Of a stretch of DNA of 37,972 bases, positions 2,465 through 28,819 are shown one piece after another. Source of the stretch: Labilithrix sp. (GTDB lineage: Bacteria > Myxococcota_A > Polyangia > Polyangiales > Polyangiaceae); the NCBI GenBank assembly GCA_028287065.1, contig JAQBQJ010000134.1, forward strand, positions 1 to 37,972, written 5' to 3'. Both the position numbers and the translations under genes were made by a program. How positions within the stretch are numbered: position 1 is the first letter of the stretch; the number at the start of each line of letters is the position of its first letter. The notes under the pieces are model-generated. The model was given only the letters and a program-made list of their open reading frames with translations. It was not told the origin of the DNA and did no database searches.

Positions 2465-3424
2465 TCAGCGCGTCGGGTTCTTCGCGAGCTTCGTCGCCAG
2501 GTCGTCCAGGAGCGTCGCCTGGTCCGTCGTTGCCGCGCGGCGTGCTTCGGTGACGATCGCCGAGGTATGCGCGTCGTCGACCACGAGCAGCGCGTTCGTC
2601 GCCGCCGTGCGGACCTCGCCGCCGTAGGAGAGGTATGCCTTCACGAGCGCGCGCGCCGCGAGCTCGCGCACAGTCGCCTCGTCCGTGCGCGACGCGAGCG
2701 TCTTCCACGCCCACGCGTTGCCCGCGACGCCGAGCGCCTTCACCGCGGCCTTCGCGGTCGCCGTGTCGGGATGCGCATCGAGGCGCTTCGCCAGGAGCTT
2801 CGTGCCGTCGACGCGGCGCGACGAGCCGACACCCGCGAGCAGGGCCTGAACGCGCTCGCCGTTGGGCGTGGCGGCGTCCGCTGCGTCGAGCGCCGTCACG
2901 AGCGCGGTGAACGCCTCGTCGGTGCCGATGCGACCGAGGGCATCCGCCGAAGCGTGCGTCGTGTCGACGTCGCGCTCGCGAAGCGCGATCCGCGCGAGGA
3001 CCGGGACGGCGCGCGCGTCGCGCACGATGCCGACGGCCTCGATGAGTCCGACGCGCAGCGCATCTCGAGCGCTCGGCGTGAGGTCCGCCGGCGCGTGGCC
3101 GTCGAACGCGAGCAGCTCGAGCATCGGCATGAGCGCACGGTTCCCGAGCACCTTGAAGTGCATCGTGAGCGGCGTTCCCTGCCGGCGCGCGCCGGCATCG
3201 AGCTCGCCTGCGCGCTTCGCGATGTCGTAGACCTGCCGGAACAGATCCGGCGTCTCGGTCCGCGCCTTCTCGATGTCGGCCTTCAGCGAGGAGCGGCTCT
3301 TCGCCGCGAGCTCGCTCGAGTCGACGGCGAGGCCCGCCGCCGAAGCGTCGAACGTCGTCGTCGCCAGCGCGAGCGCCGCGCAAAGGCCCAGGCTCAACTT
3401 CATCATGCTCTTTCGGGTGTTCAT
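2465..3424 (-). CDS. Secreted HEAT-repeat-like protein, coupled to the deiminase gene
   Basis: 319 residues from the ATG at 3424, which overlaps the upstream gene's TGA as ATGA; this coupling is why I prefer it to the ATG six codons earlier (3442), which lies inside the upstream coding region. The N-terminus is a Sec signal (MNTRKSMMKLSLGL, hydrophobic core, likely cleavage after DASA near residue 29). The mature part is mostly helical, with ~30-residue paired-helix units such as RDARAVPVLARIALR, ASADALGRIGTDEAFTALV and AKAAVKALGVAGNAWAWKTLA, which fit HEAT/PBS-lyase-type repeats. Such solenoids bind proteins. It is probably periplasmic or exported and made together with the peptidylarginine deiminase, so it may be a partner or substrate; that link rests only on operon position. 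Confidence 0.75.
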   Translation of the reverse strand: MNTRKSMMKLSLGLCAALALATTTFDASAAGLAVDSSELAAKSRSSLKADIEKARTETPDLFRQVYDIAKRAGELDAGARRQGTPLTMHFKVLGNRALMPMLELLAFDGHAPADLTPSARDALRVGLIEAVGIVRDARAVPVLARIALRERDVDTTHASADALGRIGTDEAFTALVTALDAADAATPNGERVQALLAGVGSSRRVDGTKLLAKRLDAHPDTATAKAAVKALGVAGNAWAWKTLASRTDEATVRELAARALVKAYLSYGGEVRTAATNALLVVDDAHTSAIVTEARRAATTDQATLLDDLATKLAKNPTR

Positions 3425-5295
3425 CGTCCGCTCTCCCACCACTTGGCGGCGGGGATCGCCCGCGTTGCGTTGGTCCCGCAGTGCACTTCACCCATGTTGC
3501 GGTGATAGAGGTCCCAGTCTTCCGCCCAGTGAACGGTCACGCCGAACGGCGCGACGCGCTCTTCCATGATCGCCTTGAAGATGTCCTTGCCCGCGATGTC
3601 CGGACCGTGCGGATCCGGCGCGACGAAGTGGCCGGGCGCCATGTACAGGCCGTTGACCATGCCAGGCTGATACGCGATCGAGCCCTGCGTGTACGGCATG
3701 TGCAGGTACGGGATGCGGATGATCTCCGCGTCCGTGAGGCCCGTCGCGGCCTTGATGATCGCGAGCTGGCCTTGGATCTCGGTGACCGCCTCGGCGCTGG
3801 CCTGCATGACCTCGGTGTCGGCGAGGACCTGATCGATCGTGATCTGCGCCGAGTCGTTCTGGCTCCAGTACTTGCCGACGAACATCGGAACGCCGCCGTT
3901 GCCCGCCGCGGACTGCGTCTCGAGCATCGTCTTCGCGAGCGCCGGGTCGTTCACGAGCATGACCCAGCCGCGCGCCGAATTCGCCTTGATGAACGAGAGC
4001 GTCTCGTCGACGTGTCCGACGAGTAGCCACGACGTGTCGATGTAGAGAGGCTGCTGGACCTTCTGCGCCTCGATCATCTGGAGGAACGTCTTGTCCGGGT
4101 AGTACGAGGCGATGTTCCCGCGGAGCACGCGGCCGAGCGGGAAGCTCTCCGTGCCCTTGGTGTACGGCGGGATCGTCTCGAAGTTGCCGAACGAGTTCAG
4201 CGTGTCGAACTTGCCGTGTCGTGCGGGGTCGAACTGCTGGATGCCGGCGACGTTCTTCCCGCGGAGCTGCGTGAAGACGACCTTGCCTGCGCTGCGCAGC
4301 GGGTTCGTCGCGGAGCTCGGGTTCGACTCGTTCGCCGAGCGGATGTTCACGCGCATCGCGTGCTGCGTTCCGTTCGCGCCCGGCATCGACATGAAGCCGG
4401 TCTCGAAGAAGTCCTGCGTCCACTGATCCTGGACGGCGATGCCCTTCGGCGCCGGGACGCCCGCTGCGGTCGCGGCCGTCGCGAGATCCGCGCGCGTGGC
4501 CTGGCTGCTCGCCGTGTTGATCTGCGAGACATACGTGCTCTCGGCGGCGGACATATGGTGCGACGTGAGGAGCGGCGCGACGCGCATACGGAGCTTGTCC
4601 GTCGTCGCCATGCCCGCGCCTGCGCCGGAGACCGTGAACGTCACGTCGACGAAGCCGTCCCACACCGTGGGGTCGCGAACGATGTCGCGTGCTTCGATCG
4701 CCAGCTCGACGCCCGAGCGGAGCTCCGCGGTCGTGAGCTTGCCGTCCTTCGCGAGCACCTCGAACGCCGCGCCCTTCACCTTGAAGAGTCGGACGTTGGC
4801 GGCCGCCGTGAACGTGATCGTCCCGGTCGCGCCGTCGGGCGCTGCGGCCCAGGGCTTCGTCTTCAGGCGGGCGAGATCGAGCGCGTCGTCGGTGCCGTTG
4901 ACGACCTCGTCCGCCGCGTCGTTGCACTTCACGAGGTCGACGTCACTCACGCCCGCCGTCGGGCACTTCTGCTCGTCGTCGTCGATGTTCGCGAGGAACA
5001 CCGCGCCGTGCTTCGCGTCCCACACGTCCTCGCCGTCGTCGTCCGTCGGGTCGTCGAAGCTGATGACGCCGTCACGGTTCGTGTCGGCGCGGAGATCGAT
5101 CGCGCTCGTCGCCGGAGGTGTCTTGCCGTCGGGCGGCGTGTCCGTCGAGACAGGCGGCGTCGTCGTCCCGGTCGTTCCCGGGATGCTCGGGTCAGCGGGG
5201 TCCGTCGGGATCTCTTCGCTGGTTCCGGAGCCACCGCAGGCGGCAGCCAGGAGGCTCGTGAGGAGCAGGACGTGGTGAAGTCGCTTGCGCTTCAT
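3421..5295 (-). CDS. Lipoprotein peptidylarginine deiminase (PAD, vertebrate-type family)
   Basis: 624 residues from the ATG at 5295, which has a GGAG ribosome site and places a clean lipoprotein signal (MKRKRLHHVL..., lipobox LAAAC, Cys 20) at the N-terminus; the open frame runs upstream to 5418, but that part is not signal-like. A Thr/Pro linker leads to residues 65-145, which resemble the PAD middle domain: DTNRDGVISFDDPTDD and a run of Asp/Asn suited to Ca2+ binding. The rest (about 160-624) matches the catalytic domain. All four catalytic positions of PAD4 are recognisable: Asp in WTQD (D295), His and Asp in VGHVDE (H428, D430) and Cys in GEVHCGTN (C606). PADs convert protein arginine to citrulline, usually Ca-dependently. 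An envelope-tethered enzyme acting on surface or extracellular proteins is inferred. It is translationally coupled to the HEAT-repeat gene. Confidence 0.9.
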   Translation of the reverse strand: MKRKRLHHVLLLTSLLAAACGGSGTSEEIPTDPADPSIPGTTGTTTPPVSTDTPPDGKTPPATSAIDLRADTNRDGVISFDDPTDDDGEDVWDAKHGAVFLANIDDDEQKCPTAGVSDVDLVKCNDAADEVVNGTDDALDLARLKTKPWAAAPDGATGTITFTAAANVRLFKVKGAAFEVLAKDGKLTTAELRSGVELAIEARDIVRDPTVWDGFVDVTFTVSGAGAGMATTDKLRMRVAPLLTSHHMSAAESTYVSQINTASSQATRADLATAATAAGVPAPKGIAVQDQWTQDFFETGFMSMPGANGTQHAMRVNIRSANESNPSSATNPLRSAGKVVFTQLRGKNVAGIQQFDPARHGKFDTLNSFGNFETIPPYTKGTESFPLGRVLRGNIASYYPDKTFLQMIEAQKVQQPLYIDTSWLLVGHVDETLSFIKANSARGWVMLVNDPALAKTMLETQSAAGNGGVPMFVGKYWSQNDSAQITIDQVLADTEVMQASAEAVTEIQGQLAIIKAATGLTDAEIIRIPYLHMPYTQGSIAYQPGMVNGLYMAPGHFVAPDPHGPDIAGKDIFKAIMEERVAPFGVTVHWAEDWDLYHRNMGEVHCGTNATRAIPAAKWWESGR

Positions 5296-5632: not shown

Positions 5633-7141
5633 ATGGACATCACGCGCGAGCTGAAAGCCACCGGCCTCGATCCGCAGAGCCTCGCGAGCGGCGACCTCGT
5701 CGCGCGCTCTCCGATCGACGGCAGCGTCACGGCGCGCCTCCATACGACGGACCCGGCGGGCGTCGACGCGGCGATCGGCCGAGCTCACGACGCGTATCTG
5801 AAGTGGCGATCGGTGCCGGCGCCTCGCCGCGGAGAGCTCGTTCGGCTCTTCGGCGAGGAGCTCCGCGCGAGCAAGGACGCGCTCGCGGCGCTCGTCACGA
5901 TCGAAGCCGGGAAGATCGTTCCGGAGGCGCGCGGCGAAGTGCAGGAGATGATCGACATCTGCGATTTCGCCTGCGGTCTCTCGCGCCAGCTCTACGGGTT
6001 GTCGATCGCGTCGGAGCGTCCCGGGCATCGCATGGCGGAGACGTGGCATCCGCTCGGCGTCGTCGGGATCATCAGCGCATTCAACTTCCCGGTCGCCGTC
6101 TGGGCGTGGAACTTCGCGCTCGCCGTCGTGTGCGGAGACGCGGCGGTGTGGAAGCCGTCGGAGAAGACGCCGCTCACCGCGCTCGCGTGTCAGTCGCTCT
6201 TCGAACGCGCATGCGCGCGCTTCGCGCAGTCGGGCACGCCCGCGCCCAGGGGTCTCTCCGAGATCATCCTCGGCGATGCGAAGATCGGCGAGCGGCTCGT
6301 CGACGATCGTCGCGTGGCGCTCGTCAGCGCGACCGGCTCAACGCGCATGGGGCGCGCGGTTGCGCCTCGGGTGGCGTCGCGGTTCGGTCGTTCGCTGCTC
6401 GAGCTCGGCGGCAACAACGCGATGATCGTCACGCCGTCGGCCGATCTCGATCTCGCGACTCGCGCCGTCCTCTTCAGCGCGGTCGGCACGTGCGGGCAGC
6501 GCTGCACGTCGCTGCGCCGGCTCATCGCGCACGAGAGCGTCCGCGCCGAGCTCACGACGCGACTCGAGCGCGCGTACGGCCAGGTGAAGGTCGGTGACCC
6601 GCGCGCGGAAGGCACGCTCATCGGCCCGCTCGTCGACGCCGCGTCTTACGAGGCCATGCAGTCGGCGCTCGCGCGCGCGAAGAAGGCGGGCGGCGAGGTG
6701 ACCGGCGGCGAGCGCATCGACGTCGCCGGATGCGACGGCGGCTACTACGTGCATCCGTCGATCGCGCGCATGCGCGGGCAGGACGAGATCGTCCGCGAGG
6801 AGACGTTCGCGCCCATCCTCTACGTCATGGGCTATCGCGAGATGGACGAAGCGATCGCGATGCACAACGACGTGCCGCAGGGCCTTTCGTCGTGCGTGTT
6901 CACGAACGACCTCCGCGAGGCCGAGCGGTTCCTCTCGAGCGAGGGTTCGGACTGCGGCATCGCGAACGTGAACATCGGTCCGAGCGGCGCCGAGATCGGC
7001 GGCGCGTTCGGCGGCGAGAAGGAGACGGGCGGCGGCCGCGAATCCGGCTCCGACGCGTGGCGCAACTACATGCGCCGCGCGACGAACACGGTGAACTACT
7101 CGAAGGATCTGCCGCTCGCGCAGGGGATCGTGTTCGGCTGA
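5633..7141 (+). CDS. amaB: ALDH7-family aldehyde dehydrogenase (aminoadipate-semialdehyde dehydrogenase-like)
   Basis: 502 residues, the usual length for the family. NAD(P)-binding and catalytic landmarks are in place: ISAFNFP with Asn 151, AVWKPSEKTP with Lys 174, LLELGGNN with the general base Glu 257, and GTCGQRCTS with the catalytic Cys 291. The tail motifs GPSGAEIGGAFGGEKETGGGRESGSDAW and NYSKDLPLAQGI are characteristic of the ALDH7/antiquitin branch. Known members oxidise alpha-aminoadipate semialdehyde / piperideine-6-carboxylate in lysine catabolism, using NAD+ in the cytoplasm. The next plus-strand gene is unrelated, so this appears to be a single gene. The symbol is assigned by family resemblance; other ALDH7 substrates are possible. 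Confidence 0.88.
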   Translation: MDITRELKATGLDPQSLASGDLVARSPIDGSVTARLHTTDPAGVDAAIGRAHDAYLKWRSVPAPRRGELVRLFGEELRASKDALAALVTIEAGKIVPEARGEVQEMIDICDFACGLSRQLYGLSIASERPGHRMAETWHPLGVVGIISAFNFPVAVWAWNFALAVVCGDAAVWKPSEKTPLTALACQSLFERACARFAQSGTPAPRGLSEIILGDAKIGERLVDDRRVALVSATGSTRMGRAVAPRVASRFGRSLLELGGNNAMIVTPSADLDLATRAVLFSAVGTCGQRCTSLRRLIAHESVRAELTTRLERAYGQVKVGDPRAEGTLIGPLVDAASYEAMQSALARAKKAGGEVTGGERIDVAGCDGGYYVHPSIARMRGQDEIVREETFAPILYVMGYREMDEAIAMHNDVPQGLSSCVFTNDLREAERFLSSEGSDCGIANVNIGPSGAEIGGAFGGEKETGGGRESGSDAWRNYMRRATNTVNYSKDLPLAQGIVFG

Positions 7142-7193: not shown

Positions 7194-7277
7194 TCTCCCC
7201 CGATGTGGGCCGCCCTGCTGATTTGTAGCAAGTAGCCCGGTTTCTCGACTTGGGCGATGATCGAAGCTGGCCCTTCC

Positions 7278-8525
7278 ATGCAGCTTCGTTCGCTCGCTCT
7301 CGCGTTCGTCCTCGCGCTCGGTTCGGGTCTCGCGCTCGGCTGCGCAGCGCCGACGGATCAAGGTCCCGTCGCGAGCGGCTCCGACGACATCGTCGATGTC
7401 CCGCAGACCGACGTCGAGCGACAGTCGATCGGCAACTGCTGGATCTACGCGCACGCGAGCTGGGTCGAGTCGATGCACAAGGCCGCGACCGGTGAGGACT
7501 TCGACACCTCGCAGTCGTACTGGACGTACTGGCACTGGTTCGATCAGATCACCGGCGGCGCCGCGGGGACGATCTCGACCGGCGGCAACTGGCAGACCGC
7601 CAACGGCATCGTGAAGAAGTACGGCCTCGTACCCGAGAGCGCGTTCGTGTTCGCGGACACCGCGACCGAGATGTCGACGCGCCAGGCGACGTCGCTCGCG
7701 ATCATCAACGAGTCCCTCGCGCACGGCACGCTCCAGGCGACCGCGGCGCGCCGCGATCGCGCGCTCGTCCGCAAGGAGCTCGATCGCGCATGGGCGCTCA
7801 CCGCCGACGTCACGGCCACGCTCGACCGCGTCTTCGGCGCGGACGTCTCGCGCTCCTTCACATCGACCACGTCACGCGCGGACGCGTCCGGCACGCCCAT
7901 CCAGCGCGCCGAGGACTTCGCCGTCGCGTATCCGAATTCTCCCGGTGCCGCGCCTCTGCAGCGTCGCTTGACGCAGGCGATGACCGACTGGCGACAGGTC
8001 TATTATACGGGCAACGATCGCCGCACGTTCCAGGTCCGCGTGCAGCGCGCGCTCCATGCCGCGCAGCCCGTCATCATCACGTGGTTCGTGGACTTCAACG
8101 CGCTCGAGAGTCGTGACACGCCGCTGCGTGGTGCATTCAACCTCGCGACGCTCACCGAGCTCGGTCCGGGACGACAGGGCGGACACATGACCGTCCTCGA
8201 GGACTACCAGGCGAAGCTCGCCGACGGCCGCGTGCTCGAGGCCGGCAAGACGCTCGACCCCGCGAAACCCGAGGACAAGGCGCTGCTCGACACCGCGCTC
8301 ATGCCCAGCTCGCAGGTCGAGTTCTTCCGCGTGAAGAACTCGTGGGGCTCGGCGCGCCCCGACCGCGCGTTCGCGCCGGGCATGCCGGGCTATCACGACC
8401 TCCATCTCGACTACCTCGACGGCCCGGTGAAGAAATGCACCGAGCGCGACGGAGCCACCGACACGACGAGCTGCCCCACGACGACGACGCCGCTCCAGAA
8501 CGTGGTGCTCCCGCCGGGCTTCTAG
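7278..8525 (+). CDS. Papain-fold (C1-like) cysteine peptidase lipoprotein
   Basis: 415 residues from the ATG at 7278; an ATG at 7257 in the same frame would add seven residues, and neither has a clear ribosome site. The signal ends in lipobox LALGC (Cys 22). The papain-type active site can be read in order: Gln 49 and Cys 54 in ERQSIGNCWIYA, His 303 in GRQGGHMTVLEDY, and Asn 354 in FRVKNSWGS. The long gap (~250 residues) between Cys and His and the GNCW motif are more like the bleomycin hydrolase/PepC branch than plant papains, though the protein is exported rather than cytoplasmic. No propeptide is evident between the lipid anchor and the catalytic Cys (~30 residues). The substrate is unknown; an envelope or predatory role is conjecture. 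Confidence 0.8.
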   Translation: MQLRSLALAFVLALGSGLALGCAAPTDQGPVASGSDDIVDVPQTDVERQSIGNCWIYAHASWVESMHKAATGEDFDTSQSYWTYWHWFDQITGGAAGTISTGGNWQTANGIVKKYGLVPESAFVFADTATEMSTRQATSLAIINESLAHGTLQATAARRDRALVRKELDRAWALTADVTATLDRVFGADVSRSFTSTTSRADASGTPIQRAEDFAVAYPNSPGAAPLQRRLTQAMTDWRQVYYTGNDRRTFQVRVQRALHAAQPVIITWFVDFNALESRDTPLRGAFNLATLTELGPGRQGGHMTVLEDYQAKLADGRVLEAGKTLDPAKPEDKALLDTALMPSSQVEFFRVKNSWGSARPDRAFAPGMPGYHDLHLDYLDGPVKKCTERDGATDTTSCPTTTTPLQNVVLPPGF

Positions 8526-19834: not shown

Positions 19835-20059
19835 ATGCGTATGGGGAACCTCGATCGAAGGAACGCTCCGGCTCAGACCTCGTGCGTCGTCTGCGGGACG
19901 ACGGATGCACGGCTGCTCTCCACGACCACCCTCGGGGACGGCGGACGCGTCGTCGTCTGCGGCTCGCACAAGGTCGCGCACCGTCGCGCCGAGCGCATCG
20001 CGAGCTCCGTCGACGAGCTACGCCTGCTGCTGTGCGATCGTCGCGTCGCCAACGGCTGA
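19835..20059 (+). CDS. Small zinc-binding protein (CxxC ... CxxH)
   Basis: 74 residues from ATG 19835; ATG 19841 or TTG 19799 are alternatives. The metal-site pattern is CVVC (17-20) and VVCGSH (C42, H45), a CxxC-x21-CxxH arrangement of treble-clef/ribbon type. The basic helix HKVAHRRAERIA follows. No family was recognised, but such small proteins often bind nucleic acid or protein. Its last 42 bases overlap the end of the convergent RND gene, so one of the two ends has compromised freedom; the Cys pattern makes me believe the frame is real. Confidence 0.55.
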   Translation: MRMGNLDRRNAPAQTSCVVCGTTDARLLSTTTLGDGGRVVVCGSHKVAHRRAERIASSVDELRLLLCDRRVANG

Positions 20060-23000
20060 GGGCCGCGACGCCGATCGGCGCTGCTTGGTGAACCGATCGA
20101 GCGCCAGGTAGATCACGGGCGTCGTGAACAGGGTGAGCGCCTGCGAGAAGAGCAGGCCGCCCACGATCGCGATGCCGAGCGGACGTCGCAGCTCCGAGCC
20201 CACGCCGCCTCCGATCGCGAGCGGCACCGCGCCGAGCATCGCTGCGAGCGTCGTCATGAGGATCGGGCGGAAGCGCAGCAGGCACGCCTTCGTGATGGCG
20301 GCCTCGGGTGACAGGCCCTCCTCGCGCTCGGCCTCGATCGCGAAGTCGATCATCATGATCGCGTTCTTCTTCACGATGCCGATGAGCAGGATGATCCCGA
20401 TGAGTGCAATGACGCTCAGCTCCGTCTTGAACAGGAGCAACGCGAGCAGCGCGCCGACGCCCGCGGAGGGAAGCGTGGACAGGATCGTGATCGGATGGAT
20501 GGTGCTCTCGTAGAGCATCCCGAGCACGATGTAGACCGTGACGAGCGCGGCGAGCACGAGCATCGGCTCGCTCGCGAGCGATGCCTTGAAGGCCTGCGCG
20601 GTGCCCTGGAAATCTGCATGGATCGACGCGGGCATGCCGATCTCGAGCTCGGCGCGATGGATGGCGTCGACGGCCTCGCCGAGCGACACGCCGGGCGCGA
20701 GATTGAACGAGAGCGTTGTCGCGGGGAACTGACCTTGATGGCTGATCGAGAGCGCCGTCGCTGCGATGCTCTTCTTCGTCAGCGCATCGAAGGGCACCAT
20801 CCCGCCGTCGGCCGACCGCACGTAAAGACGGTCGACGGACTCGGGACCGCCGACGAGGTCGGGCTTCATCTCGAGGACCACGCGATACTGGTTCATCGCC
20901 GCGTACGTCGTCGCGACCTGACGCTGGCCGAACGCGTCGTAGAGCGTCGCGTCGACTTGCTGCGGCGTCACGCCGAGCCGTGAGGCGGAGTCGCGATCGA
21001 GATCGAGACGCAGCTCGAGCCCGGAGGTCTGCTGATCGGAGTTCACGTCCTTCAGCTGCGGCACCTTGCGGAGGCGCTCGAGCACCTTGGGTCCCCACGT
21101 GCGGAGCTCTTGGAGGTCCGCGTCCTGCAGTGTGTACTGGTACTGCGTGCGCGCCGAGCGACCGCCGACGCGGACGTCCTGCGTCGCCTGGAGGAACAGC
21201 GTGAGCCCCTCGACCTGCGCGAGCTTGGGCCTCAGGCGGGCGATGATCGCGTCCGCGTTCGGGCGCTTGCCCGTCTTCAGATCGACGAACATGGTCCCTG
21301 TATTTCCGGTGTTTCCGGAGCCGGCGCCCACGAACGACACGACGTGCGCGACGTCCGGATCGGCGCCCACGATGGCGAGCACGCGCTCCTGGCGCGCGCG
21401 CATCGCAGGGAACGAGATGTCCTGCGGCGCCTCCGAGAAGCCCATGATCATGCCGACGTCCTGCTGGGGGAAGAGTCCCTTCGGAACGACGATGTAGAGC
21501 GCGACGGTGCCGGCGATCGTCGCCATCGTGAGAGCGCCGACGAGCTTCCGGCGGCGCAGCACCCACGCGAGCGCACGCTCGTAGCCGCGGAGGATGCTCG
21601 CGAGGACCCACTCCGTGCCGCGGTGCAGGCGGCCGTGCGGTCCGTGATCGGGCTTCAGGAGCCGCGAGCACATCATGGGCGTGAGCGTGAGCGACACGAC
21701 CGCGGACACGGCGATCGCGATGCTCAACGTCATCGCGAACTCGCGGAAGAGACGCCCGACGATGCCGCCCATGAGCAGGATCGGGATGAACACGGCGAGC
21801 AGCGAGGCCGTGATCGAGACGATCGTGAAGCCGATCTGCTTCGCGCCCTCGAGCGCGGCCTCGCGCGGGGGACGGCCGGCCTCGACCAGCCGCGCGACGT
21901 TCTCCGTCACGACGATCGCGTCGTCGACGACGAAGCCCGTCGCGATGGTGAGCGCCATCAGCGACAGGTTGTCGAGGCTGTAGTCGAGCAGGTACATCAC
22001 CGCGAACGTGCCCACGAGCGACAGCGGTACCGCCACGCTCGGGATCAACGTCGCCCGGAACGACCGCAGGAACACGAAGACCACGAGCACGACGAGCGCG
22101 AGGCTGATGAGGAGCGTGTACTCGACGTCGGCGACCGAGGCGCGGATGCTCTGCGTGCGATCGAGCGCGATGTCCACCTTGATGGCCGGCGAGATGGACG
22201 TCGCGATCGAGGGCAAGAGCGCCTTTATCCGATCGTTCGTCGCGACGATGTTCGCGCCGGGCTGCCGGCGGATGATCATGAGGACGGACCGGACGCCGTT
22301 CGTCCACGCCGCAACGCGCTCGTTCTCGACGGACTCGAAGACGTGCGCGACGTCGCCGAGGTGCACGACCGCGCCGTTGTTCTGCGCGATGACGACCTTC
22401 TCGAACGACTTCGGGCCGAAGAGCTGATCGTTCGCGCCGATGGTGCGTGCCCTCACGTCGCCGGAGAGAGAGCCCTTCGGCGAGTCGACCGTGGCCTGCG
22501 CGAGCGCAGTCCGGACGTCCTCCATCGTGAGGCCGATGCCCGCGAGGATCTGCGGATCGACCTGCACGCGCACGGCCGGCTGCTGCGACCCTCCGACCGT
22601 GACCTGTCCGACGCCCGAGACCTGCGAGATGCGCTGCGCGAGGATCGTGGTCGCAGCGTCGGCGATCTGACCGATAGGCACGACGTCGCTCGTGAGCGAA
22701 AGGATCATGATCGGCGCGTCGGCCGGATTCACCTTGCGATACGAAGGTCGCGACGGCAGATCTGCCGGGAGCTCGCCGCCGGCGGCGTTGATCGCGGCTT
22801 GCACGTCGCGCGCTGCGCTCTCGACGTCACGATCGAGATCGAACTGCATCGTGATGTTCGTCGTGCCGAGCGCGCTCGTCGAGGTGATCTCCGCGACGCC
22901 CGCGATCCGTCCGAAGCGACGCTCGAGCGGCGTCGCCACGGCCGAGGCCATCGTCTCGGGGCTCGCGCCGGGGAGATTGGCGCTGACCTGGATCGTCGGG

Positions 23001-23125
23001 AAATCGACGCGCGGGAGCGGCGCGACCGGGAGCAGCACGTACGAGAGCATGCCTGCGATGAGCACGGCGGCGGCGAGGAGCACCGTCGCGATCGGCCTCC
23101 GGACGAACGGCGCCGAGACGTTCAC
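20018..23125 (-). CDS. mdtC: RND efflux pump subunit, MdtC-like
   Basis: 1035 residues from GTG 23125, with GGGAGAGG just upstream and GTGA overlap with the preceding gene. A full-length inner-membrane RND transporter: start motif FVRRPIATVLL, porter-domain repeats (PLPRVDFPTIQVSANLPGAS), TM4 proton-relay pair Asp 401-Asp 402 in GFVVDDAIVV, and the partner Lys in GIVKKNAIMMIDFAIE. Drives export of drugs, bile-like compounds or metals by proton antiport, together with a fusion protein and TolC. No HME-type metal-site signature was noticed, so the hydrophobe/amphiphile (HAE-1/MdtBC) class is more likely. Last gene of a four-gene operon. The symbol is by family and order (MdtB/MdtC-type pair), not proven orthology. 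Confidence 0.88.
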   Translation of the reverse strand: MNVSAPFVRRPIATVLLAAAVLIAGMLSYVLLPVAPLPRVDFPTIQVSANLPGASPETMASAVATPLERRFGRIAGVAEITSTSALGTTNITMQFDLDRDVESAARDVQAAINAAGGELPADLPSRPSYRKVNPADAPIMILSLTSDVVPIGQIADAATTILAQRISQVSGVGQVTVGGSQQPAVRVQVDPQILAGIGLTMEDVRTALAQATVDSPKGSLSGDVRARTIGANDQLFGPKSFEKVVIAQNNGAVVHLGDVAHVFESVENERVAAWTNGVRSVLMIIRRQPGANIVATNDRIKALLPSIATSISPAIKVDIALDRTQSIRASVADVEYTLLISLALVVLVVFVFLRSFRATLIPSVAVPLSLVGTFAVMYLLDYSLDNLSLMALTIATGFVVDDAIVVTENVARLVEAGRPPREAALEGAKQIGFTIVSITASLLAVFIPILLMGGIVGRLFREFAMTLSIAIAVSAVVSLTLTPMMCSRLLKPDHGPHGRLHRGTEWVLASILRGYERALAWVLRRRKLVGALTMATIAGTVALYIVVPKGLFPQQDVGMIMGFSEAPQDISFPAMRARQERVLAIVGADPDVAHVVSFVGAGSGNTGNTGTMFVDLKTGKRPNADAIIARLRPKLAQVEGLTLFLQATQDVRVGGRSARTQYQYTLQDADLQELRTWGPKVLERLRKVPQLKDVNSDQQTSGLELRLDLDRDSASRLGVTPQQVDATLYDAFGQRQVATTYAAMNQYRVVLEMKPDLVGGPESVDRLYVRSADGGMVPFDALTKKSIAATALSISHQGQFPATTLSFNLAPGVSLGEAVDAIHRAELEIGMPASIHADFQGTAQAFKASLASEPMLVLAALVTVYIVLGMLYESTIHPITILSTLPSAGVGALLALLLFKTELSVIALIGIILLIGIVKKNAIMMIDFAIEAEREEGLSPEAAITKACLLRFRPILMTTLAAMLGAVPLAIGGGVGSELRRPLGIAIVGGLLFSQALTLFTTPVIYLALDRFTKQRRSASRPSAVGDATIAQQQA

Positions 23126-26100
23126 TCGGCCTCTCCCGGTTGCTCCGCTCCCTCGAGCGGCACCGCGCGCCGGCGTCCGATGCTCTTCAGCCAGCGGCCG
23201 AGGCGCTCCATGTAGAGGTAGATGACGGGCGTCGTGTAGAGCGTCAGGATTTGCGAAACGATCAGGCCGCCGACGATCGTGATGCCGAGCGGCCGCCGCA
23301 GCTCCGCGCCGGCGCCGCTGCCGATGGCGAGAGGCACGCCGCCGAGCAGCGCGGCCATCGTGGTCATCATGATCGGACGGAAGCGCAGGAGACAGGCCTT
23401 GTGGATCGCGTCGCGCGGTGACAGGCCTTCTTCGCGTTCGGCCTCGACCGCGAAGTCGATCATCATGATCGCGTTCTTCTTCACGATGCCTATGAGCAGC
23501 ACGATGCCGATGAGCGCGATGACCGTGAAGTCCGTGCGCGTCGCGATGAGCGCGAGCAGCGCGCCGACGCCGGCGGAGGGCAGCGTCGAGAGGATCGTGA
23601 TCGGATGGATCGTGCTCTCGTAGAGGATGCCGAGCACGATGTAGACGGTGATGAGCGCCGCGAGGACGAGCGCCGGCTCGCTCGCGAGCGACTCGCGGAA
23701 CGCCTGCGCGGTGCCCTGGAATCCGCTGTGCAGGCCCGGAGGCGCACCGAGCTGCGTCATCGCGTTGTTCGTCGCCTCGACCGCGTCGCCGAGCGACGCA
23801 TGCGGCCCGACGTCGAACGAGATCGTGACCGACGAGAACTGTCCCTGGTGGTTCACGACGAGCGGCGCGGCGGTCTCCGCCACGTGCACGAACGTGGAGA
23901 GCGGCACCTGCACGCCTGCCGTCCCGCGCACGTACAGCTGCTCGAGCGCGCGCTGGTCCTTCTGCATCCCGGGCTTCACCTCGAGCACGACGCGATAGAG
24001 GTTCAGCTGCGTGAAGATGGTCGAGACCTGCCGCTGCCCGAACGCGTCGTAGAGCACGTCGTCGATCGCCTGCGTCGAGACGCCGAGCCGCGAGGCGGTG
24101 TCGCGATCGATCGTGACCGCCACGCCGAGGCCCGATTCCTGGAAGTCGCTCGTGACGTCGCGCAGCTCGGGCAGCGCGCGCAGGGCGTCGATGACCTTCG
24201 GCGCCCACTCCGCGAGCTCCTGGGGATCGGCGTCTTCGATCGTGAACTGATACGGCGTGCGGCTCGCGCGCACGTCGATCTGGAGGTCCTGGACCGACTG
24301 CAGGTACGTGGTGACGCCCGGGATCTGCGCGAGCTTCGGCTTCAGCCTCGCCATGATCGTGTCGGCGTCGGCGTCGCGCTCCTTGTGCGGCGCGAGCGTG
24401 ATCGACATGCGACCCGTGTTGAGCGTCGCGTTCGTGCCGTCCGCGCCGATGAACGACGCGACGCTCGCGACCCCGCGCTCGGCCCTGATGACGTCCGCGA
24501 CGGAGCGCTGGAGGTCCATCATGCGCGTGAACGACACGTCCGCCGGGGCCTCCGTGACCGCGATCACGAGCCCGGTGTCCTCCTGCGGGAAGAAGCCCTT
24601 CGGCACCACCCATGCGAGGACGGCGGTGAACGCGACGGTGCCGAGCGTCACGAGCAGCGTCGTGCGCGCATGGTCGAGGACCCAGCGCAGCCCCCGGTCG
24701 TAGATGCTCAGCATCCCTTCGAAGCCGCGCTCCGAGAGCTTGTACAGGCGACCGCGCTCTTCGGCCTTCGGCTCGGGGCGGAGGAGATGACCGCTCATCA
24801 TCGCGGTGAGCGTCAGCGAGAGCAGCGCGGACACGACGATCGCCGCGGCGAGCGTGACGGCGAACTCGCGAAAGAGTCGCCCTATCAAGCCGGTCATGAA
24901 CAGCAGCGGGATCAGCACCGCGACGAGCGAAACCGTGAGCGACACGATCGTGAAGCCGATCTGCTTCGCGCCCTTGAGCGCCGCGGCCATCGGCTCCTCG
25001 CCGTGCTCGATGTAACGCGCGATGTTCTCGATCATGACGATGGCGTCGTCGACGACGAAGCCCGTCGCGATCGTGAGCGCCATGAGGGACAGGTTGTTCA
25101 GGCTGTACCCGAGCAGGTACATGATGCCGAACGTGCCCACGAGCGAGAGCGGCACTGCGACGCTCGGGATGATCGTCGCGCGTACGTTGCGGAGGAACGC
25201 GAAGATCACCAGCACGACGAGGCCGATCGTGATCGCGAGGGTGATCTCGACGTCCTCGACCGAGGCGCGCACCGTCTCGGTGCGGTCGCTGAGGATGGTC
25301 ACGTCGATGCTCTGCGGGAGCGACGCCTTCAGCTGCGGCAGGAGGGCCTTCACGCGATCGGCGACCTGGATGACGTTCGCGCCGGGCTGCCGCTGGACGT
25401 TGACGATGATCGCGCGGCCGCCATTGGCCCACGCCGCGAGCTGATCGTTCTCGACGCCGTCGATGACGTCTCCGACCTCGCCGAGCCGCACCGGCGAGCC
25501 GTTGCGGTACGCGACCACGATGGGCCGGAAGGCCTTCGCGCTCGTGAGCTGGTCGTTCGTCGCGATCGTGTAGTCCTGACGCGCGCCGTCGATGTTGCCC
25601 TTCGCTTGATTGACGTTCGCGGCGACGAGGGCGAGACGCACGTCGTCGATCGACAGCCCCGTGCCGGCGAGCGCCGCGGGATCGACCTGCACGCGGACGG
25701 CGGGCTTCTGGCTTCCGTTGAGCGTCACGAGGCCGACGCCGGCGACCTGCGAGATCTTCTGCGCGAGCACCGAGTCCGCGGTGTCGTTGACCTGCGTGAG
25801 CGGAAGAGACGGAGACGACACGCTCAGCGTGAGCACCGGCGCATCGGCTGGGTTGCTCTTGCTGTACGTCGGCGGCGTGGGGAGCGTGCGTGGCAGGAGG
25901 TTCGACGCCGCGTTGATCGCGGCCTGCACGTCCTGCTCGGCGGCATCGATGCTGCGCTCGAGCGTGAACTGCAGCGTGACCTGCGAGTTGCCGAAGCTCG
26001 ACACGCTCGTCATCTGCGAGAGCGACGGCATCTGACCGAACTGCCGCTCGAGCGGCGTCGTGACCGACTCCGCCATCGTCTGCGCGCTCGCGCCGGGCAG

Positions 26101-26250
26101 GTACGTCGAGACGACGATGGTCGGATAATCGACCTGCGGGAGCGCCGCGACCGGGAGCTGCCGGAACGCGACGATCCCCGCCAAAAAGAGGCCGATCATC
26201 AGCAGCGTCGTCGCAACCGGACGACGGATGAACGGCTCCGAGATGCTCAC
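23122..26250 (-). CDS. mdtB: RND efflux pump subunit, MdtB-like
   Basis: 1042 residues from GTG 26250, overlapping the fusion-protein stop as GTGA. Starts FIRRPVATTLLMIG and has porter motifs (LPQVDYPTIVVSTYLPGAS), the TM4 pair Asp 401-Asp 402 (GFVVDDAIVM) and GIVKKNAIMMIDFAVE near the end, so it should be proton-driven in its own right. It is a close paralogue of the next gene (same length, nearly identical motif spacing), which points to the heteromeric MdtB2C arrangement known in Enterobacteria, although homotrimers are not excluded. Acts in the inner membrane, reaching into the periplasm. Confidence 0.88.
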   Translation of the reverse strand: MSISEPFIRRPVATTLLMIGLFLAGIVAFRQLPVAALPQVDYPTIVVSTYLPGASAQTMAESVTTPLERQFGQMPSLSQMTSVSSFGNSQVTLQFTLERSIDAAEQDVQAAINAASNLLPRTLPTPPTYSKSNPADAPVLTLSVSSPSLPLTQVNDTADSVLAQKISQVAGVGLVTLNGSQKPAVRVQVDPAALAGTGLSIDDVRLALVAANVNQAKGNIDGARQDYTIATNDQLTSAKAFRPIVVAYRNGSPVRLGEVGDVIDGVENDQLAAWANGGRAIIVNVQRQPGANVIQVADRVKALLPQLKASLPQSIDVTILSDRTETVRASVEDVEITLAITIGLVVLVIFAFLRNVRATIIPSVAVPLSLVGTFGIMYLLGYSLNNLSLMALTIATGFVVDDAIVMIENIARYIEHGEEPMAAALKGAKQIGFTIVSLTVSLVAVLIPLLFMTGLIGRLFREFAVTLAAAIVVSALLSLTLTAMMSGHLLRPEPKAEERGRLYKLSERGFEGMLSIYDRGLRWVLDHARTTLLVTLGTVAFTAVLAWVVPKGFFPQEDTGLVIAVTEAPADVSFTRMMDLQRSVADVIRAERGVASVASFIGADGTNATLNTGRMSITLAPHKERDADADTIMARLKPKLAQIPGVTTYLQSVQDLQIDVRASRTPYQFTIEDADPQELAEWAPKVIDALRALPELRDVTSDFQESGLGVAVTIDRDTASRLGVSTQAIDDVLYDAFGQRQVSTIFTQLNLYRVVLEVKPGMQKDQRALEQLYVRGTAGVQVPLSTFVHVAETAAPLVVNHQGQFSSVTISFDVGPHASLGDAVEATNNAMTQLGAPPGLHSGFQGTAQAFRESLASEPALVLAALITVYIVLGILYESTIHPITILSTLPSAGVGALLALIATRTDFTVIALIGIVLLIGIVKKNAIMMIDFAVEAEREEGLSPRDAIHKACLLRFRPIMMTTMAALLGGVPLAIGSGAGAELRRPLGITIVGGLIVSQILTLYTTPVIYLYMERLGRWLKSIGRRRAVPLEGAEQPGEAE

Positions 26251-27458
26251 GGCTGCGCCTTCGCGGTCGTCTGTCCGGCGGGCCTCGGCGCGACGCGCGT
26301 GCCCGGGCGGAGCTGGTTCTGTCCGTCCGTGACGACCGCGTCGCCCTCCTGGATGCCCTTCGCGATCACGGCGACGTCGCCTTCGATCGACCCCACCTCG
26401 ATGGCGCGCGTCGTGACCGTCTTGTCCGGCGCGACGACGTAGGCGAACGTCCCGCTCGGCCCGCGCTGGATCGCCGAGGCCGGCACCACGAGCGCGTCGT
26501 GCAACGTGGTGAGGTGCATGCGCGCCTTGACGAACCCGTTCGGCCAGAGCACGTGCTCGGGGTTCGGGAGCACGGCCTTCAGCCGGATCGTCGCGGTCTG
26601 CGCGTTGACCTGGTTGTCGACGAGCGCGAGCTCTCCGGTCCCGAGCTTCTGGATGCCGTCGCGCGCGTACGCCTCGACGGCGACCTTGCCGTCCTTCATC
26701 GCGCGCTGCACGCGCGGCAGATCGTCCTGCGGGAGCGTGAACACGACCGCGATCGGATCCATCTGCGTGATGAGCACGATGCCGTTCGCGTCGCTCACGT
26801 GGACGAGGTTGCCGGGATCGACCTGCCGCAGGCCGGTCACGCCGTCGATCGGGGATTTGATGCGCGCGTAGTCGAGCTGGAGCCGCGCGTTCTCGACCTG
26901 CGCGCGATCGGCGCGAATGGCGGCCTCGAGCTGATCGACCGCGGTGCGTTGATCGTCGACCTGCTGCTGCGGGATCAGGTTGCCCTTTCGGAGCGTCTCG
27001 TAGCGTTCGAGATTCAGCTTCCCGTTGCTGAGCTGCGCTTCGTCGCGCGCCACCGCGGCTTCGGCGGTATGGAGCTGGATCGTGAAGGGCCGAGGATCGA
27101 CGAGCGCGATCACTTCGCCCTTCTTCACCGCCTGACCCTCGGTGAAGAGGACGCGATCGAGCCGGCCGTCGACCTGCGTCTTGACGGTGACGGTCGCGAG
27201 CGGCGTGACGGTCCCGAGGCCCTCGAGGAGCACGGGCACGTCCTTGCGTGCGGCGATCGCCGTGCCGACGGGGACGACGCGTTCGCCTCCCGCGCTGCCT
27301 GCCGGCGCGCCCCCGCCGGCAGCTCCTGCGGCGCTCGATCCCGCAGCCGGGGTGCGCTGCGCGTTGGCGCGCGCGCTCTGTCCGCGAAGGAACAGCGCGA
27401 AGCCGATCAAGAACGCTACGCCGATGGCGGCGAGCACGAATCGCGTCGTTCGTTTCAT
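26247..27458 (-). CDS. mdtA: RND membrane fusion (periplasmic adaptor) protein, MdtA-like
   Basis: 403 residues from ATG 27458, which overlaps the TolC gene's stop as ATGA. A single N-terminal membrane anchor (~7-25: FVLAAIGVAFLIGFALFL) with no lipobox, then a Gly/Ala-rich linker. The lipoyl halves are VKTQVDGRLDRVLFTEGQAVKKG and ARIKSPIDGVTGLRQVDPGN, flanking an alpha-hairpin (AEAAVARDEAQLSNGKLN...). The beta-barrel and membrane-proximal parts follow (VVPASAIQRGPSGTFAYVV; EGDAVVTDGQNQLRPGTRV). It bridges the RND pumps to the outer-membrane channel encoded just upstream. Confidence 0.88.
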   Translation of the reverse strand: MKRTTRFVLAAIGVAFLIGFALFLRGQSARANAQRTPAAGSSAAGAAGGGAPAGSAGGERVVPVGTAIAARKDVPVLLEGLGTVTPLATVTVKTQVDGRLDRVLFTEGQAVKKGEVIALVDPRPFTIQLHTAEAAVARDEAQLSNGKLNLERYETLRKGNLIPQQQVDDQRTAVDQLEAAIRADRAQVENARLQLDYARIKSPIDGVTGLRQVDPGNLVHVSDANGIVLITQMDPIAVVFTLPQDDLPRVQRAMKDGKVAVEAYARDGIQKLGTGELALVDNQVNAQTATIRLKAVLPNPEHVLWPNGFVKARMHLTTLHDALVVPASAIQRGPSGTFAYVVAPDKTVTTRAIEVGSIEGDVAVIAKGIQEGDAVVTDGQNQLRPGTRVAPRPAGQTTAKAQP

Positions 27459-28819
27459 CGTTGCCCGAGCGCGGCGAGGAGATCCGCGCGTGCTGTGGAG
27501 AGTCGAAACTGTGCCTGCACGACCTGCGCGGCTGCCGTGGTGAGGGCGACCTGCGCGTCACCGAGCTCGATGATGCTGCCGACGCCCGAGGCGTAGCGCC
27601 CCTCGGCGAGGCGAAGGCGCTCGCGCGCGTTCGTGAGCGCCTCGCCCGCTGCGACCTGCGAGGCCTTGGCCGCACGGATGTCGAGCTGCGCCTGCTGCAC
27701 GTCGACGCGGATTTGCAGCTTCTGCGTGTCGGTCTGCGCCCGCGTCGCGTCGGCGTTCGCCTCCGCTTCTCGCACCTGGCCGTGGGTGAGCCCGCCCTGG
27801 AAGATCGGCCAATTGAGGTTCACGCCGACGCTCCACGCGGGACCCAGATCGCCGAGATCGGTGCCCGTCTCGGAGGCGCCCGCCGATGCTGTGAGCGCTG
27901 GCCCGTACTGACCGCGGTACGCTTTCGCACTCAGCTGGTACGCCTCACGTTGCTTGTCGAGGGCGAGGAGCTCGGGCCGCGCGGCGAACGCGCGAGCGAC
28001 GAGGCGATCGGTCGCGAGGTCCTCGCCGTCGATCGGCGGGAGCTCGTCGTCCGCGACCTCGTAGTCGCTCGCGCCGCCGAGCCCGATGGCGCGCGAGAGC
28101 TGCGCCTTCGCGACGGCATAGGCGTTCTCCGCGTCGATGACCTGCAGTCGGCTGTTCGCGACGTCCGTGCGTGCCTGCGCGAGGTCGATCTCCGGCCGCG
28201 TGCCGACGCCGACGAAGCCCTCGATCTGCGTCAGATGCTGCTGGAAGTTCTGGAGCGAGCCGCGCGCAACGCCGATGAGCGCCTTCTGCGCGCGCGCCGT
28301 GAAGTACGAACGACGGACGTCGACGAGGACGTTCTGCGACGCGGTCTTCTCGTTGGCGCTCGCGGCGTCGACGAGCCGGCTCGCGGCGCGCGAGCGGTTG
28401 TACGTCGCGCCGAAGTCCCAGAGGAGCTGCGTCGCGCTTCCGCCGAACGTGAAGACGTCGATCCCGCTCGTGCCCGACGGAGTGATGGCGGACGGTGCTC
28501 CGCCGACGGTCGTGGTCGCCGTGCCGCTGCGCCCACCGACGCCCGCGCTGCGGATCCGCTGGTACGACGCCACGGCGGTGAGCTGCGGGAACAGCCCGGC
28601 GCGCGCCTGCGTCGCTCGCCCTCCGGCCGCGTTCGTCTGCGCTCGAGCTTGCTGGATGGTGGGCTGGTTCTTGAGCGCCGTGGCCACCGCGTCGTCGAGT
28701 CGCAGCACGCGCGCGTTCGTGGTCGCGTCGGGCACGCTTGCCGCCTGCAGCAAGACGGGGAGGACGACGACGGCGAGCGGAGGAAACATGAGCCCGCCGG
28801 CTCGCTTCGCAACAAGCAA
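27455..28819 (-). CDS. TolC-like outer-membrane efflux channel
   Basis: 454 residues if it starts at TTG 28819, which supplies a basic n-region (LVAKRAGG); ATG 28789 would start directly in the hydrophobic core. No strong ribosome site decides. Signal core MFPPLAVVVLPVLLQAAS. The two OEP repeats are recognisable: VLRLDDAVATALKNQPTIQQARAQ and, later, LALDKQREAYQLSAKAYRGQYGPALTASAG, with long coiled helices and NWPIFQGGLTHGQVREAEA. It forms the trimeric tunnel that exports pump substrates. First gene of the operon, 170 bases from the divergent histidine kinase gene. Confidence 0.87.
   Translation of the reverse strand: MLVAKRAGGLMFPPLAVVVLPVLLQAASVPDATTNARVLRLDDAVATALKNQPTIQQARAQTNAAGGRATQARAGLFPQLTAVASYQRIRSAGVGGRSGTATTTVGGAPSAITPSGTSGIDVFTFGGSATQLLWDFGATYNRSRAASRLVDAASANEKTASQNVLVDVRRSYFTARAQKALIGVARGSLQNFQQHLTQIEGFVGVGTRPEIDLAQARTDVANSRLQVIDAENAYAVAKAQLSRAIGLGGASDYEVADDELPPIDGEDLATDRLVARAFAARPELLALDKQREAYQLSAKAYRGQYGPALTASAGASETGTDLGDLGPAWSVGVNLNWPIFQGGLTHGQVREAEANADATRAQTDTQKLQIRVDVQQAQLDIRAAKASQVAAGEALTNARERLRLAEGRYASGVGSIIELGDAQVALTTAAAQVVQAQFRLSTARADLLAALGQR

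Follow-up and report, generated by a model that had tools for sequence, protein, structure and literature searches.

The window, by which we mean the whole stretch of 37,972 nucleotides analysed here, encodes a peptidylarginine deiminase (PAD) with a lipoprotein signal, overlapped by a second gene, and the question it raises is to which kind of PAD this enzyme belongs and how it could work outside the cytoplasm of a bacterium. The earlier note had read it as a lipid-anchored PAD of the vertebrate type in a myxobacterium. The coordinates it gave for the gene (3421-5295) were right, the strand being minus, and a myxobacterial host agrees with the closest relative of the protein, which comes from Labilithrix sp. 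(locus L128, 68% identity, sister to the window PAD in our tree). The features of the locus are the following:

3421..5295, minus strand: coding sequence of the PAD lipoprotein, 624 amino acids, from ATG at 5295 to TGA at 3423-3421; Pfam PF03068, E 2.1e-88
5236..5295, minus strand: signal peptide and lipobox, with predicted lipidated Cys20 (codon 5238-5236) and Gly at +2; from the sequence
5104..5235, minus strand: low-complexity linker, residues 21-64, most of it with pLDDT < 50; no PAD_N domain
4606..5103, minus strand: divergent PAD_M calcium-binding domain, residues 65-230; from profile alignment to PAD4, ligand mapping and model
3433..4605, minus strand: PAD_C catalytic domain, residues 231-621; PF03068
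4411..4413, minus strand: catalytic Asp295 (= PAD4 D350); from alignment
4006..4014, minus strand: catalytic His428-Val-Asp430 (= PAD4 H471, D473); from alignment
3478..3480, minus strand: catalytic Cys606 (= PAD4 C645); from alignment
2465..3424, minus strand: coding sequence of an exported HEAT-repeat partner, 319 amino acids, Sec-type signal peptide at about residues 1-29; PF13646
3421..3424, minus strand: ATGA overlap of the PAD stop (TGA, 3423-3421) and the partner start (ATG, 3424-3422); from the sequence
3185..3187, minus strand: near-invariant Arg80 of the partner, in a loop (79-86) between two helices; from alignment and model

Membership of the PAD family, judged by sequence, is far beyond chance: the match to PF03068 reaches 297 bits (cut-off 25) and covers positions 3-395 of the 395 of the profile over residues 231-621, and D295, H428, D430 and C606, which the earlier note had numbered exactly, are in register with D350, H471, D473 and C645 of PAD4. 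The N-terminus, MKRKRLHHVLLLTSLLAAAC, reads as a lipoprotein signal, with the lipobox LAAAC20 after a basic, hydrophobic signal peptide and a Gly after Cys20; a bacterial lipoprotein of PAD fold is thus what the lipobox and PF03068 indicate, as had been claimed. For the middle domain the picture is more nuanced, since Pfam PAD_M stays below threshold on the window PAD (E 0.047, against E 0.00025 in one relative); of the profile search proposed as a check, the C-terminal part was positive and the PAD_M part sub-threshold. A profile made from the relatives of the window PAD aligns with human PAD4 in one stretch that begins at the middle domain and ends at the C-terminus (E 3e-101) and, with the ligands of Ca3-5 in place, the Ca-binding-like middle domain postulated at the outset is recognizable. 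The AlphaFold model (42 Myxococcota sequences; pLDDT 89.6, pTM 0.85) superposes with its residues 65-624 on PAD4 114-663: VIA-align against the solved PAD4 structure 5n0m gave Z 48.1 and 1.8 Å over 508 residues with 26% identity, and the overlay on PAD4, also proposed as a check, upholds the predicted fold. PAD_N is absent, because the alignment to PAD4 starts at model residue 65 (PAD4 114) and the preceding residues are a low-confidence linker.

Calcium ligands were mapped to PAD4, the assignment of ligands to sites being that of the PAD4 and PADI2 structures. Those of Ca1 (Q294, E298 and E373) and of Ca3-5 (N103, D105, D107, D126, D129, D137, D140 and E201) are present in the window PAD; the Ca2 switch site was not found, E351, D369, N373 and D388 of PAD4 being replaced by F296, R319, E323 and N348. 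Given this ligand anatomy, the enzyme is likely to depend on calcium. In PAD4, R374 contacts the substrate; its counterpart in the window PAD varies with the alignment, Ser324 in one and Arg in another.

Is the enzyme then of the vertebrate type, and does it bear directly on where animal PADs came from? We consider this very improbable. Family and fold are common to the window PAD and animal PADs, and PADI1-4 of vertebrates have the PAD_M and PAD_C fold, the catalytic tetrad and most calcium ligands in common with it, but the window PAD lacks PAD_N and the Ca2 switch (with F, R, E and N in the place of its ligands), has an HH linker, is exported, has a partner gene, and is only 24-26% identical to them. 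The tree points in the same direction. It is unrooted and comprises 97 rows, cyanobacterial and fungal PADs not being among them. A phylogeny had been proposed as a check; ours gave a grouping with Actinobacteria and none with human PADs: one branch, with support 100/99, holds the window PAD, other Myxococcota PADs and all the actinobacterial rows, with the human rows outside. Wherever the root is placed, this conflicts with a grouping of the window PAD and animals versus Actinobacteria. Animal PADs, the type that we call EDS (see below) and the remainder join at a single point. In published work, animal PADs were grouped with those of cyanobacteria (PMC8826395). The vertebrate type is thus not supported, and the claim of a direct bearing on animal PAD origin falls with it.

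Published subtype markers (PMC8826395) mostly agree with the tree: the window PAD has the HH linker (H246-H247-M248 at the position of PADI2 300-302) and lacks the Ca2 site. Most relatives, the EDS type included, have HHL at this place, so the linker may be ancestral. Another marker of the fungal/actinobacterial type, the replacement of the switch Asp by Gly, was not found in the window PAD, which has Asn; most Myxococcota relatives have Asp, and Gly occurs in one of three plasmid-borne Streptomyces/Embleya proteins. This is a minor feature, which the tree outweighs. Given its tree position and these markers, the window PAD is, on the evidence of sequence and model, a PAD by fold and family but of the fungal/actinobacterial and not of the vertebrate subtype. 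With the PADIs of this subtype (Cummings et al. 2021, PMC8826395) it has in common PF03068, a divergent PAD_M, the lack of PAD_N, calcium sites 1 and 3-5, the loss of Ca2 and the HH linker; Streptomyces proteins named 'protein-arginine deiminase' family or domain in databases are ∼37% identical to it. These PADIs have a cleaved Sec signal, whereas the window PAD has a lipid anchor and the overlapping gene of an exported HEAT-repeat partner; lipoproteins, secretion and myxobacteria are not mentioned in the text of PMC8826395. The PPAD of P. gingivalis is also bacterial and exported and also deiminates arginine, but it has distant pentein-fold kinship only and belongs to a different family, one that has no PAD_M (PMC8826395); for the window PAD, scanning against Pfam gave PF03068 and no Porphyromonas-type PAD family, in keeping with the earlier note. 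A phage or plasmid origin of the PAD was considered and rejected: there was no match in phages or in PHROGs, no match in viral contigs was confirmed, and only four actinobacterial plasmids matched. A role in anti-phage defence was likewise set aside, PADLOC giving no match.

Outside P. gingivalis, citrullination in bacteria has received little study, and by published count PADIs are found in < 1% of bacterial species (PMC8826395). The description of PADs of this fold as scattered among bacteria does not hold for this phylum: PF03068 was found in 94 of 379 Myxococcota genomes, i.e. in a quarter of those sampled, versus 3 of 198 Actinomycetota (among which is the PAD-bearing genome on which that set is centred), with a Fisher p of 1e-15 that is only a guide because the genomes are related. 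The window PAD is the sole PAD in its draft assembly, which is 72% complete. According to the residues at the Ca2 positions, the Myxococcota PADs fall into three types, xRS (to which the window PAD belongs), FxRG and EDS. With signal peptides judged by hydrophobicity and lipobox pattern, essentially all of them are predicted lipoproteins: the strict lipobox pattern is present in 99 of 109, versus 1 of 55 actinobacterial PADs, and the remaining 10 have, by eye, a Cys directly after the hydrophobic stretch. The PADs of this phylum are apparently all aimed outside the cytoplasm. In keeping with export, three of them (L012, L016 and L019, with L017 added by sequence) have somatomedin-B domains after the lipobox and ahead of the PAD (PF01033, best E 2e-17); somatomedin-B is a module rich in disulphides and known above all from animals. 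Another homolog, L052 (G231:C103), begins like a lipoprotein but has other residues in place of both catalytic Asp and of the catalytic Cys; it is probably an inactive PAD.

How could a lipid-anchored PAD work? The best clue, in our opinion, is the partner gene, which the earlier note had passed over. Its AF2 model (pLDDT 93.6, pTM 0.88) is an all-helical solenoid, with which Foldseek retrieved mostly designed alphaRep HEAT proteins at weak scores. A HEAT homolog lies directly 3′ of the PAD gene in 42 of 46 xRS loci, in 19 of 19 FxRG loci and in 19 of 20 Myxococcota loci that are named but untyped. In the single exception among the latter, and in three of the four among the xRS loci, the HEAT gene instead lies upstream of the PAD, with both on one strand; some of these reversed cases are a single locus counted twice. 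L014 and L015 show this reversed order. Myxococcus dinghuensis (L096) and Polyangium fumosum (L074) are among the species with a pair. In 81 PAD-partner pairs, counted without known duplicates and including four EDS-type loci that the HEAT profile also picked up, the two genes share exactly 4 nt in 53, as in the window, and 1 nt in 7. A signal-peptide-like N-terminus is present in each of the 81 partners, whose start codons had been picked by a heuristic. Of the window genes searched for at PAD loci, only the HEAT gene recurs, the four others giving no match. The promoter/terminator scan of the locus was uninformative. Our search of open-licence papers found none on PADs with HEAT repeats, on myxobacterial PADs or on the pair.

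The association is also seen from the side of the partner. Searching all 379 genomes with the partner profile gave 66 members above 80 bits and none between 81 and 52 bits; 62 are directly 3′ of a PAD, 2 directly 5′, and 2 are contig-end fragments, which stop 4-5 nt from the contig ends in genomes whose PAD is also at a contig end. Out of 56 genomes with a partner, 55 have a listed PAD; in the remaining one, G291, the PAD is a contig-end fragment that the list did not include. The pairing is kept across the phylum and after duplication, G283 having four PADs and four partners. One could imagine instead a free-standing surface PAD acting on prey or environmental proteins, for which the HEAT protein would be a general chaperone or an anchoring factor that takes no part in catalysis or regulation. 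Such an arrangement would suit a lipoprotein PAD in a phylum known for its predators. Moreover, actinobacterial PADs are exported without a partner (0 of 53 loci with a HEAT partner), so that a PAD needs none in principle, and L128, the closest relative of the window PAD, has no partner downstream at its locus, although the second PAD of the same genome has one. A general chaperone, however, would hardly be expected to be essentially exclusive to PAD loci (64 of 66 members), nor to come as one partner per PAD even where a genome has several, and we find this explanation unlikely.

We therefore favour a dedicated pair, and think it probable that the two genes form a two-protein, probably calcium-dependent module for citrullination in the envelope; the pairing comes from genomics, and it is activity, substrate and the role of the partner that we infer. 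In this proposal, 2465-5295 (minus strand) would be a two-gene operon. The PAD would be exported by Sec and lipid-anchored, most likely in the outer membrane, because Cys20 is followed by Gly and not by an Asp retention signal; in E. coli, Asp after the lipidated Cys is such a signal. It would bind calcium at site 1 and sites 3-5, without the Ca2 switch of the animal enzymes, and would hydrolyse peptidyl-arginine to citrulline by means of Cys606, His428, Asp295 and Asp430. The partner, translated from the overlapping start codon as an exported HEAT-repeat solenoid, would bind the PAD outside the cytoplasm, where it may present the substrate (possibly its own near-invariant Arg80 loop), be the substrate itself, or control or gate the active site. 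It thus offers a concrete candidate substrate or regulator of bacterial PADs. As to the targets, proteins of the cell's own surface or of prey, both named in the earlier note, are possible. With respect to the loop, position 80 is Arg in 49 of 50 members and is the most conserved charged residue of the partner. Other arginines of the partner are also well conserved, and conserved arginines may be structural in HEAT repeats as well. That this arginine is the residue that meets the PAD active site is a tentative proposal.

The same loop can be read differently. A lipoprotein followed by an overlapping gene recalls the SitA/SitI systems of Myxococcus, in which the SitA toxins, lipoproteins that are handed on through outer membrane exchange, come with a cognate, adjacent sitI (PMC5562445); the PAD could then be a contact-delivered effector and the HEAT protein an inhibitor that shields the envelope proteins of the producer, with the conserved Arg loop as a pseudosubstrate. 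What weakens the comparison is that SitA is polymorphic, its C-terminal domains being variable and active in the cytoplasm (PMC5562445), whereas the PAD is conserved over its whole length and the partner looks exported in 81 of 81 cases. We regard this explanation as quite unlikely, and return to the pair as an envelope citrullination module.

The EDS type provides a second case. It is a short Myxococcota PAD (L040, L041, L044, L045, L047, L050, L051, L053, L162-L165, L167, L169, L170, L172, L174-L180, L182, L188-L190, L192, L193 and L196-L199) that keeps E351, D369, S370 and often D388 and R372/R374, plus the HH linker; one member scores 161 bits against human PADs, above the window PAD and a Streptomyces PAD. 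The Ca2 site has been described as a feature that only the PADIs of cyanobacteria and animals possess, so that its animal-like form in the EDS type bears on how Ca2 regulation arose. Export does not account for the missing Ca2 site of the window PAD, since the EDS type is a lipoprotein too and keeps it. EDS-type PADs are followed by another exported protein, of ∼220-320 amino acids, whose gene overlaps that of the PAD by 4 or 1 nt in 22 of 34 cases. These partners are one family, 33 of 33 being recognised by leave-one-out profiles, and the profile has no other match among the 9453 ORFs of all loci and none in Actinobacteria. Compared with the HEAT family, profile to profile, it gives 96% probability and E 1e-9; the two families appear to be distantly related, less surely than this E-value would indicate because HEAT repeats match one another generically. 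One arginine is invariant in the alignment of EDS partners, mostly within a TRAG-like motif, and this arginine and Arg80 of the HEAT family lie in similar regions, a few columns apart in the profile alignment; because of this offset, their equivalence is only a suggestion. Nearly all PADs of the phylum come with a dedicated exported partner. It is conceivable, though we would not rely on it, that the Myxococcota system is in general a lipid-anchored PAD for which the invariant Arg loop of its partner is either target or gate, in two parallel versions built on different PAD lineages. At one locus, L179 (G092:C110), two tandem EDS-type PADs lie on one strand, 4 nt apart, with a single partner gene after the second.

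In the rest of the window, the gene divergent from the PAD gene (5633-7141, plus strand) encodes an aldehyde dehydrogenase (NCBIfam L-piperidine-6-carboxylate dehydrogenase, 812 bits), for which no link to PADs was seen in the search of PAD loci. It is followed at 7257-8525 (plus strand) by a likely lipoprotein with similarity to Peptidase C1. Further along, at 20000-28819 (minus strand), two RND-type efflux transporters, a membrane fusion protein and a TolC-like protein, recognised by eye from the translations, are encoded in a row.
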